Position numbers and translations under genes: made by a program
The notes under the pieces: model-generated
What the model saw: only the letters and a program-made list of their open reading frames with translations
Told to the model about the DNA's origin: nothing
The model's database searches: none
Part shown: positions 29,405 to 39,170 of the stretch, piece by piece
Layout of the letters: every line of letters starts with the position of its first letter
How positions within the stretch are numbered: the stretch's first letter is position 1
NCBI RefSeq assembly: GCF_003269275.1
Contig: NZ_QLTS01000003.1
Location: forward strand, 62,001-126,000
Length of the DNA: 64,000 bases
From: Phascolarctobacterium faecium DSM 14760
Lineage (GTDB): Bacteria; Bacillota; Negativicutes; Acidaminococcales; Acidaminococcaceae
Direction of reading: 5' to 3'

Positions 29405-29479
29405 ATACCACAAGGGTACGTATTCTCACTAGGCTCGAAAATACCTCGCCAAGTTTTCATACAGTACCACAAGGGTACG
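29405..29479 (-). promoter_or_regulatory. Duplicated TACCACAAGGGTACG operator-like element at the FbpA-like gene promoter
   Basis: The 15-mer occurs exactly at 29406-29420 and 29465-29479, 59 bp apart. The second copy is a clean GTACC-N5-GGTAC inverted repeat. The first touches a minus-strand TATAAT at about 29401-29406 that would serve the gene starting at 29371. A dimeric repressor binding here would block the promoter (inference). Confidence 0.5.
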
Positions 29480-29545
29480 CATTACCGCGAAAAATCACTA
29501 TCATTGATCAAAATTCCCGTACAGCTGCTAATTTGAACTTAATTA

Positions 29546-29574
29546 TTGACATCAGTGCTTTTTTTAAGTATAAT
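29546..29574 (+). promoter_or_regulatory. Consensus sigma-70 promoter
   Basis: TTGACA at 29546-29551 and TATAAT at 29569-29574 with a 17-bp spacer, a full consensus match. The predicted start point falls at about 29581, on the first base of the 16-bp palindrome. Confidence 0.85.
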
Positions 29575-29580
29575 TTATAC

Positions 29581-29596
29581 GTTAGCTTAAGCTAAC
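29581..29596. promoter_or_regulatory. 16-bp palindrome GTTAGCTTAAGCTAAC (operator-like), copy 1
   Basis: Perfect palindrome at the predicted transcription start. The CTTAAG-centred form resembles operators of DtxR/MntR-type metal repressors, and a DtxR-family gene lies at 37724. A repressor bound here would block the small RNA promoter. Confidence 0.55.
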
Positions 29597-29687
29597 TGTT
29601 TGGGGTTGCCCGCTTCCAAACTTTTACACTTATCAACTTAACGCTCACTCGATACTGTGCTTAACAGCTCTCACGCACAGTTTTTTA
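29581..29687 (+). ncRNA. Candidate small RNA of about 105 nt
   Basis: The transcript from the consensus promoter would begin with GTTAGCTTAAGCTAAC and continue through a GTTTGG...CCAAAC hairpin (29598-29603 with 29615-29620). It would end at an intrinsic terminator: ACTGTGC (29654-29660) pairs with GCACAGT (29675-29681), followed by T6. There is no ATG in the interval and no ribosome binding site, and the exporter gene starts 200 bp further on. The C/U-rich loop and tail (TTGCCCGCTTCC) would be free to pair with G-rich ribosome sites. An alternative is an attenuated leader of the exporter gene. Confidence 0.6.
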
Positions 29688-29697
29688 TTTTTCTCGA

Positions 29698-29713
29698 GTT
29701 AGCTTAAGCTAAC
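29698..29713. promoter_or_regulatory. 16-bp palindrome GTTAGCTTAAGCTAAC, copy 2
   Basis: Identical to the copy at 29581 and followed by T6, so it could also fold as a short terminator. It lies 175 bp before the ABC exporter start. The rest of the gap to 29888 is AT-rich; a TATAAT-like element near 29795 may be the exporter promoter. Confidence 0.5.
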
Positions 29714-29887
29714 TTTTTTCCAATACACTTAAAATCACATTAACAAATTACTTTACAAATACTCAAAATAACCTCTGCTCTTATAGTTCAATGTGTTATA
29801 ATTGATTATAGTTGATTTTTATTCGTCATTTTTATATTTCTACCGGCTGCAGCAGCAGTAGGTACATTTATCTGCGAGGTCTGCCAT

Positions 29888-31615
29888 ATGCCAGAACGTT
29901 TATTAAAATACTACCGCCCTTACCGAAAAACATTGTTTTTTGCTTTGCTCGGATCCGTTATCACATCCGCCCTTGATTTATGTTTTCCGCTCTTTATGCG
30001 CTATATCCTGGGCGATGTACTGCCCGAAGGCAATCTTTTCCTCTTAGGGCAGGCTACGATCATCTTGCTTTTTTTATACCTGCTTAATTTTATAATCAGT
30101 TATCAAGTCTCAAGACACGGCCGCCTAATGGGTGCAAAAATAGAACAGGATATGCGCAGTGACCTTTTTCAGCATGTCCAATCAATGTCTTTCCGTTATT
30201 TTGACAACATCCGTATCGGCCAGCTGATTTCCCGTATTGTCAGCGATATTGCCGAGATCCGTGAGCTTGTTTTTCTTGGTCCTAATTACCTGCTGGTCTG
30301 TACTATAACCATGCTTGGTACTCTGGGAATACTTATTTATCTTAACTGGCCTTTAGCGTTACTGGTCAATCTGCTGCTGTTAGGAAAAGCTTATGAATCA
30401 GTTGCTACCAATCATGCACTGAAACAATCAGGGCGTATGATCCGCGAACAGGTCGGTAATCTTACAGCACAGACAAATGAAAGTCTGAATGCCATACGCC
30501 TAGTTAAATCCTTCAACAATGAAGAATGGGAAGAAAAACGCCTTGATAAAAACGGACAAGCTCTTTTACAGGCACGTAAAACATCGTTCGACCTTTTATC
30601 ACGCCTGAACAGCAACGCTGTATTGTTTTCCAATGTCACTAATCTTGTTATCATTGTCGTAGGCGGCGCCATGATCGCATATGGTAAAATGCAGATCAGC
30701 GATCTGGTCGCCTTTTTACTGTATGTATCAATCTTTATCCGCCCCATCCTGCGCCTGACCGCATTAGCAGAATCCTATCAGAAAGGTATGGCCGGTTACC
30801 AGCGCTTTTGCCAGCTGATGGATACCCCTTCTGAAAATATAGATCTGCCCGGCGCAGTCGACTGTGGTACTTTAAAAGGCTCTATTTCCTTTAAAAATGT
30901 CAGCTTTGGCTACGATCCCGGCAAACCTGTTATTCAAAATTTTGATCTTGATATCGCTGCCGGTGAAGTTATCGCTTTTGTCGGCACTACAGGTGTTGGT
31001 AAAAGCACGATCTGCAATCTGCTGCCGCGTTTCTATGAACTTCAGCAGGGCGTTATAACCATTGACGGAATGGATATCCGCAATGTGACCTTAAAATCAC
31101 TGCGCCGTAATATCGGCATAGTTCAGCAGGATATCTTCCTTTTCTCTGACTCTGTACGTGAAAATATCGCTTACGGCAACCCTCATGCCAGTATGGAAGA
31201 AATCATCACCGCTGCCAGATTGGCCGAAGCTGATGCTTTTATCAATCAGCTGCCGGATGGTTATGACAGCCAGCTTGGTGAACGCGGTGTTAAATTGTCC
31301 GGAGGCCAAAAACAGAGGATTGCCATTGCCCGTGTTTTTCTCAAAAATCCGCCCATCCTGATTTTAGACGAAGCGACTTCTTCCCTGGATAATGAAACGG
31401 AAAACCTTATCCAGGAATCACTGATGCAGCTGTCACGTAACCGCACGACCCTGATCGTAGCCCATCGCCTGGCAACGATCCGTCATGCCGACCGTATCGT
31501 TGTCCTCACCCCCAACGGTATCAGCGAACATGGTTCTCATGACGATCTGATGGCTTTGCAGGGAGAATATTACAAGCTTTATATGGCACAGTTCAGTAAA
31601 AGCCCGCTAAATTAA
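29888..31615 (+). CDS. ABC-type multidrug/lipid exporter half-transporter (MsbA/MdlB-like)
   Basis: A 575-residue protein fusing a six-span exporter domain (about residues 1-310, starting ERLLKYYRPYRKTLFFALLG) to an ATPase: Walker A AFVGTTGVGKSTICNLLPRF, Q-loop IVQQDIFLFSDSVRENIAYG, signature VKLSGGQKQRIAIARVF, Walker B PPILILDEATSSLDNETE and H-loop VAHRLATI. It works as a dimer that exports lipids, drugs or peptides. Monocistronic, ended by the terminator at 31621. The upstream palindromes suggest metal-linked control (inference). Confidence 0.92.
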   Translation: MPERLLKYYRPYRKTLFFALLGSVITSALDLCFPLFMRYILGDVLPEGNLFLLGQATIILLFLYLLNFIISYQVSRHGRLMGAKIEQDMRSDLFQHVQSMSFRYFDNIRIGQLISRIVSDIAEIRELVFLGPNYLLVCTITMLGTLGILIYLNWPLALLVNLLLLGKAYESVATNHALKQSGRMIREQVGNLTAQTNESLNAIRLVKSFNNEEWEEKRLDKNGQALLQARKTSFDLLSRLNSNAVLFSNVTNLVIIVVGGAMIAYGKMQISDLVAFLLYVSIFIRPILRLTALAESYQKGMAGYQRFCQLMDTPSENIDLPGAVDCGTLKGSISFKNVSFGYDPGKPVIQNFDLDIAAGEVIAFVGTTGVGKSTICNLLPRFYELQQGVITIDGMDIRNVTLKSLRRNIGIVQQDIFLFSDSVRENIAYGNPHASMEEIITAARLAEADAFINQLPDGYDSQLGERGVKLSGGQKQRIAIARVFLKNPPILILDEATSSLDNETENLIQESLMQLSRNRTTLIVAHRLATIRHADRIVVLTPNGISEHGSHDDLMALQGEYYKLYMAQFSKSPLN

Positions 31616-37572: not shown

Positions 37573-37723
37573 CTGCTCTAACTATACTTGCCCAGACCTT
37601 TTTATAATGTTAAAATAGTACTGATAATATTTGCCGGAATATTCTTACTGCTCACTAATTTTCACCGGCTGTGTTTTATTACACGATCAATCAAACGGCA
37701 CTATTGCCAACGGAGGACTTGTT

Positions 37724-38092
37724 ATGATTTTGCAAGAATCTGGAGAAAACTATTTGGAAACCATTCTGATGCTGCAGCAGCAAAACGGCAGTGTCCGTTC
37801 TATCGACATTGCAACGCATATGAATTTTACCAAAGCCAGCGTCAGCAGGGCTATGAGTATTTTAAAACGCGAAAATTACATTCTGATGGAAGCGGACGGC
37901 AACATCATTCTGACTGAAACAGGGCTCGCTAAAGCAAACGCTGTTTTGGAAAGACATCTGCTGTTGACGCGCTTTTTACGCGAAAATCTTGGCGTATCCG
38001 AAGAAACAGCTGAAAAAGATGCCTGCCGGATCGAACATGTTATCAGCCCCGAAACCTTTACCGGGATAAAAAAACTGATCAAAAACTCTTAA
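37724..38092 (+). CDS. DtxR/MntR-family metal-dependent transcriptional regulator (short form)
   Basis: The start at 37724 follows GGAGG by 8 bp. The 122-residue protein has the DtxR winged helix (SGENYLETILMLQQQNGSVR, IDIATHMNFTKASVSRAMSI, LKRENYILMEADGNIILTET) and the dimerisation/metal domain (VLERHLLLTRFLRENLGVSE, DACRIEHVISPETF), where the Glu, Cys/Asp and His residues of the metal sites lie. It lacks the C-terminal SH3-like domain, like MntR. Likely senses Fe or Mn. Candidate targets are the CTTAAG-centred palindromes at 29581 and 29698 (inference). Confidence 0.88.
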   Translation: MILQESGENYLETILMLQQQNGSVRSIDIATHMNFTKASVSRAMSILKRENYILMEADGNIILTETGLAKANAVLERHLLLTRFLRENLGVSEETAEKDACRIEHVISPETFTGIKKLIKNS

Positions 38093-38866: not shown

Positions 38867-38962
38867 TTCTTGTATACCTCTGTATCTTAATGATATTTTT
38901 TCCTAATTTGCTTGACACTCTATTCAAAGATGTTATAATTTAGTATATCAAACTGAATACGG

Positions 38963-39113
38963 TAATGCAGGTTCCGTCAGGAATAACAGAGAAGACCGGT
39001 TAAAAGCCGGCGCGGTCCCGCCGCTGTAAGATGGAGCAACGCCTATAGAACCACTGGAATATTCCGGGAAGGAAGGCCGAGCCATGAAGTCAAGCCAGAA
39101 GAACTACCTGCAT
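38963..39113 (+). promoter_or_regulatory. Adenosylcobalamin riboswitch aptamer
   Basis: The P1 strands ATGCAGGTT (start) and AACTACCTGCAT (end) enclose the conserved core GCCGGCGCGGTCCCGCCGCT followed by GTAAG, and the B12 box GTCAAGCCAGAAGAAC at 39089-39104. The order, spacing and length match the cobalamin riboswitch. It precedes a terminator and then the exported CbiK gene, so high cobalamin should shut the gene off. Confidence 0.93.
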
Positions 39114-39170
39114 CGCGATCTTAGTGACCTGCGAAGGACGGGGAAAGATCATGGGTCTAACCATGTTTTA

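Follow-up and report, generated by a model that had tools for sequence, protein, structure and literature searches.

A predicted iron-responsive small RNA gene under a DtxR-type operator in Phascolarctobacterium faecium

The promoter, the palindromes and the predicted transcript

Within the 64-kb window of the Phascolarctobacterium faecium genome analysed here, a sigma-70-type promoter, a palindrome, an intrinsic terminator and a second copy of the palindrome follow one another over 29546-29713 (Table 1). The promoter matches the consensus at 12 of 12 positions (TTGACA at 29546-29551 and TATAAT at 29569-29574) and is the only site in the 64 kb with at most one mismatch. Because 0.72 matches are expected at that stringency, the promoter by itself is not beyond chance; its combination with the palindrome and the terminator is. 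Exact copies of the 16-bp palindrome GTTAGCTTAAGCTAAC occur at these two positions and nowhere else in the genome. Transcription is predicted to begin 7 nt after the -10 element, on the first base of the first copy, so this palindrome would act both as an operator and, once transcribed, as the RNA's 5′ hairpin. From there the transcript is predicted to run about 101 nt to the end of the terminator stem (ACTGTGC/GCACAGT, 29654-29681, -8.1 kcal/mol) and about 112 nt overall, ending near 29692. The terminator hairpin is modest, and a consensus scanner missed it because its unusually long loop exceeds 8 nt. The architecture outlined in the initial annotation, a full-consensus promoter opening onto a 16-bp palindrome, a 7-bp-stem terminator, no ATG between them (zero in 29581-29692) and an identical palindrome just beyond, was thus recovered in every particular.

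Table 1. Features of the window discussed in the text, in window positions.
Feature	Position	Strand	Description
Repeated promoter-embedded element	29406..29424 and 29465..29483		TATTATACCACAAGGGTACGTATTCTCAC..GGCTCGAAA
AT-rich stretch upstream of the -35	29487..29516		ATCACTATCATTGATCAAAA; loose, candidate-level resemblance to a Fur-type site
Sigma-70-type promoter	29546..29574	+	TTGACA-17-TATAAT; perfect consensus
Operator 1	29581..29596	+	GTTAGC-TTAA-GCTAAC; on the predicted start point
Predicted non-coding transcript	29581..29692	+	start placed from the -10, end from the U tract
Second hairpin (predicted fold)	29598..29621	+	GUUUGG.../...CCAAAC, C-rich loop (GUUGCCCGC)
Linker between second hairpin and terminator	29622..29653	+	predicted unpaired in the fold, G-poor
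Intrinsic terminator	29654..29692	+	7-bp stem, 14-nt loop, then TTTTTATTTTT
Operator 2	29698..29713	+	identical to operator 1
Possible extended -10 of the exporter	29794..29802		TGTTATAAT
MsbA-like ABC exporter	29888..31615	+	next gene downstream
DtxR/MntR-family metal-dependent repressor	37721..38092	+	best candidate for operator binding, from sequence
Cobalamin riboswitch	38952..39125		upstream of a CbiK-like cobaltochelatase gene

The predicted transcript is 62% pyrimidine and folds into three hairpins, namely the operator, the GUUUGG/CCAAAC stem and the terminator, with a stability only moderately better than that of shuffled sequences (z about -2.3). The C-rich loop of the second hairpin is a possible pairing region. 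Two TTG codons and one GTG are the only other starts in 29581-29692; they open reading frames of 11-16 codons, none with a convincing ribosome site. Translation of a very short peptide (11-13 codons from the TTG at 29600 or 29606) is highly improbable: GGGG does precede the TTG at 29606, but ATG codons and a properly spaced ribosome site are absent and the start lies inside a hairpin. By sequence, then, the locus is an independent short transcription unit with its own promoter and terminator and no open reading frame.

The exporter gene lies on the same strand, 196 nt after the terminator, with operator 2 in between, an arrangement that could make the transcript its regulated 5′ leader, in which the terminator attenuates, read-through is conditional and operator 2 serves as a roadblock. 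The modest hairpin and its 14-nt loop would suit such a leader. We nevertheless consider this reading unlikely, since neither an anti-terminator structure nor a leader reading frame was seen, the exporter has a possible extended -10 promoter and a possible ribosome site of its own, and its orthologues in related genera (67-68% identity) have other neighbours and lack both operator and leader. For the same reason, the exporter was rejected as a syntenic route to the RNA in relatives. The suggestion that the locus sits among iron-type transport genes drew weak support: flanking ABC components match 2-aminoethylphosphonate- and ferric-type families at scores under the cut-offs, and an MsbA-like gene comes next.

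No promoter-like site was found adjoining operator 2. Its offset from operator 1 is 117 bp, or about 11 helical turns, and this spacing makes looping or a roadblock possible; several other members of the regulon described below also carry two or three operators. Upstream, the repeated TATTATACCACAAGGGTACGTATTCTCAC..GGCTCGAAA element recurs in five further loci. Its other strand ends in TATAAT, it precedes at least six unrelated genes, and in two loci it occurs twice, 59 bp apart in both; it is perhaps a regulator site or a special promoter class.

The operator regulon and its candidate repressor

The arms of the palindrome define a genome-wide element. GTTAGC-N4-GCTAAC occurs at 12 exact sites in the 2.3-Mb genome and at none in the reversed control, and 21 places match the palindrome with at most three mismatches against 2 in that control. 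Likewise, the operator arm occurs four times in one 0.8-Mb contig, where the average for 179 alternative arms composed of the same letters is 0.06 occurrences. Across the family, 91 exact sites lie in 28 of 59 genomes, against 2 in the control. By its distribution in these sequences the palindrome is a real, genome-wide operator.

Genes neighbouring the operators were read and then matched to Pfam, and most exact operators proved to adjoin iron genes. These include feoA-feoB (three sites, two of them weaker) and genes for a FeoB-associated Cys-rich protein, TonB receptors, a ChaN-type haem protein, siderophore/haem ABC components and Peripla_BP_2/FecCD-type transporters, together with Fe/Mn superoxide dismutase, a ferritin-like Dps protein and AhpC. 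Two flavodoxin loci and an exbB-exbD-tonB-type cluster have one-mismatch operators upstream. At most sites, 3-10 bp separate the -10 of a good promoter from the operator that follows it; at 29581 the distance is 6 bp, and the promoter of the RNA carries the operator shared by the iron-uptake regulon. The proposals of a repressor operator on the start point and of metal or iron responsiveness are both strongly borne out, the latter at the level of the promoter, by this regulon and its conservation in the family. Two apparently orphan operators in relatives were set aside, as both lie between feoA and feoB. An unexpected regulon member is a ribosomal protein S4-like gene with the operator in its promoter (L024, 2073-2690), and an S4-like gene in another genus also has the operator. 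At a further locus under the operator (L021, 2843-8977), ABC genes of siderophore/haem type are flanked by genes resembling NifH and nitrogenase component 1; together they may form a nitrogenase-like system for a tetrapyrrole or a metallophore.

The best candidate for binding these sites is encoded within the window, about 8 kb from the RNA locus. The 37721-38092 product belongs to the DtxR family by its domains (Fe_dep_repress, 37.8 bits against a cut-off of 26; Fe_dep_repr_C, 60.1 bits against 27), and in four other genera (g3, g4, g7 and g14) its orthologue shares one locus with feoAB and the operator. IdeR recognises CCTAA repeats, with a half-site of two repeats and a 4-bp spacer, and its box overlaps the start site or the -10 in repressed genes (PMC10317159). 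The operator here has the same layout, two GCTAA pentamers with a 4-bp spacer at +1, differing in that the pentamer opens with G, not C. Gln43 of IdeR makes contact with the repeat's first base; the aligned position is Arg in the 37721-38092 protein and in every orthologue read, a substitution that plausibly matches the C-to-G change in the operator, with the same Arg also present in genera that have few or no exact operators. Three genera (g6, g10 and g17) encode a DtxR-family regulator about 70-75% identical, with the same recognition helix and no exact operators; judging from these sequences, their regulon may now rely on weaker sites or no longer exist.

Manganese might instead be the effector of the same small RNA, through an MntR-like repressor, or a Fur-family protein might read the operator. 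MntR models rank first for the repressor in NCBIfam, all below cut-off, three Fur-family proteins are encoded in the genome, and Sod and Dps belong to the regulon. Against this, phmmer places IdeR/DtxR chains slightly above MntR, the half-site layout resembles that of DtxR/IdeR rather than a Fur box, dtxR adjoins feoAB and the operator in those four genera, and the regulon comprises iron uptake and iron-sparing flavodoxins. We regard this alternative as unlikely. The repressor is more likely of DtxR type than Fur, to judge from sequence comparison, and the regulon content favours iron over manganese even with MntR models ranked first. Together, these comparisons point to an iron regulon in Acidaminococcaceae controlled by a DtxR/MntR-type repressor through GTTAGC-N4-GCTAAC, with small RNAs inside it.

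Homologues, targets and an unrelated RNA in a sister genus

The homology search in relatives that had been proposed for the RNA returned none. DNA searches of 60 relatives, 300 genomes of the class and plasmids found no homologue of the RNA body, the compared genomes including no second species of the genus, and a pattern from its 5′ end matched nothing but itself among viral contigs. Rfam covariance models gave nothing credible at gathering or relaxed thresholds, with no match to RyhB, FsrA, PrrF or other curated families.

Scanning relatives' operators for sites without a gene uncovered another RNA, in the sister genus g13. There, tandem GTTAGC-N4-GCTAAC operators 34 bp apart and a TTGACA-17-TAAAAT-type promoter precede a region with no open reading frame and a terminator near +195, giving a predicted RNA of about 200 nt. 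An alignment of nine g13 sequences contains an invariant UGAUGAUUCCUCUUC block, and its long hairpin and terminator show compensatory changes, with nine pairs changed on both sides; the covariation score of 0.235 exceeds the values from shuffling (0.170 ± 0.012) and from sliding (0.112 at most). With a covariance model built from these nine species (R1), the RNA is detected in 10 of 14 g13 genomes, and confident matches occur nowhere else; the tenth genome lies outside the model's own sequences and has both promoter and operators. The RNA carries UUCCUCUUC, complementary to ribosome sites, and has no match in Rfam. A tRNA cluster lies upstream in three of three loci scanned. On this covariation, the g13 RNA is a candidate new RNA family.

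Like the RNA in the window, the g13 RNA belongs to the same bacterial family and has the operator at +1, a consensus-like promoter, an intrinsic terminator and no open reading frame; it differs in its tandem operators, its length and its invariant block, and the two cannot be aligned beyond the operator. Against the window and other loci of the same genome, R1 gave only chance-level matches elsewhere and none at the RNA locus, so the two RNAs are not homologous by covariance-model test. The g13 RNA nonetheless indicates that the regulon does contain small RNAs. The earlier designation of the locus as a small RNA is supported by its anatomy and by this unrelated RNA under the same operator; for its own body, the genomes searched yielded no homologue.

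Target prediction, also proposed at the outset, gave no signal: over 726 start regions, drawn from one contig, the window and some loci and amounting to about a third of the genome, duplexes with the loop, the linker and the terminator loop showed no excess over shuffled segments, and predicted targets were not enriched in proteins with Fe-S motifs. The unconserved RNA body and the lack of predicted targets would both fit a transcript with no function in trans, either a decoy titrating the repressor or tolerated spurious transcription from a strong promoter. We find this quite improbable, as a perfect promoter, a precisely placed operator, hairpin-capped ends and a terminator would be costly to keep by chance, and two sites would titrate little of a regulator with at least 12.

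Iron-responsive RNAs and a proposed role

Iron-repressed small RNAs are a known kind of regulator. IsrR of Staphylococcus is an iron-repressed RNA with a promoter and terminator of its own, a pair of repressor boxes and C-rich single-stranded regions; FsrA of Bacillus subtilis is a small iron-repressed RNA whose C-rich motif blocks ribosome sites; and MrsI of Mycobacterium tuberculosis is an iron-limitation RNA for which repression by the DtxR-family protein IdeR has been predicted (PMC9410917). In its control logic, MrsI is the closest precedent for what is proposed here, although it comes from a different phylum, where no sequence relation is expected, and the operator here is of GCTAA type, with a shorter MntR/DtxR-like regulator. 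The RNA in the window shares with IsrR its own promoter and terminator, two boxes and C-rich regions, all read from sequence, whereas IsrR is Fur-controlled, 174 nt long, folded into three stem-loops and conserved across its genus, with no detectable homology. FsrA is likewise Fur-controlled and acts with the FbpABC chaperones. RyhB and PrrF of Proteobacteria are small iron-repressed RNAs too, and Hfq is encoded in the Phascolarctobacterium genome, but theirs is a Fur box and a different sequence. The initial comparison with RyhB and FsrA therefore holds as an analogy and not as membership, given the lack of any Rfam match and an operator of DtxR/IdeR rather than Fur type. By analogy with IsrR, FsrA, RyhB and MrsI (PMC9410917), the role of the RNA is likely iron sparing.

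We therefore favour, as the probable reading, an autonomous gene for a small RNA of about 110 nt, repressed by a DtxR/MntR-type protein and acting in trans to spare iron. While metal, most likely Fe2+, is plentiful, the 37721-38092 repressor would bind the palindrome at +1, blocking the promoter, and would also bind the second copy 117 bp on. A fall in iron would relieve repression of the RNA at the same time as that of feoAB, the TonB receptors and the remaining genes with operators, letting the RNA build up with a hairpin capping each end. It would most likely base-pair through the C-rich loop, the unpaired linker or both, with the help of Hfq, at the ribosome sites of iron-using proteins, thereby sparing iron.

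Neither a DtxR iron regulon nor an iron-responsive small RNA for Acidaminococcaceae was found in the literature searched, and this kind of regulator appears to be undescribed in the family. More tentatively, but as a possibility we take seriously, unrelated small RNAs may have come under the same DtxR-type operator in at least two genera of the family, at 29581 here and in g13. A non-Fur repressor of diderm Negativicutes would then have recruited iron-sparing RNAs in parallel, and the duplicate operator downstream would serve in looping or as a roadblock. The g13 RNA offers a ready-made, covariation-supported candidate for a new RNA family. It is under Fur that iron-sparing RNAs are best known; a clear DtxR-type case in gut diderm Firmicutes, if true, would mean that the repressor and the RNA are interchangeable parts.
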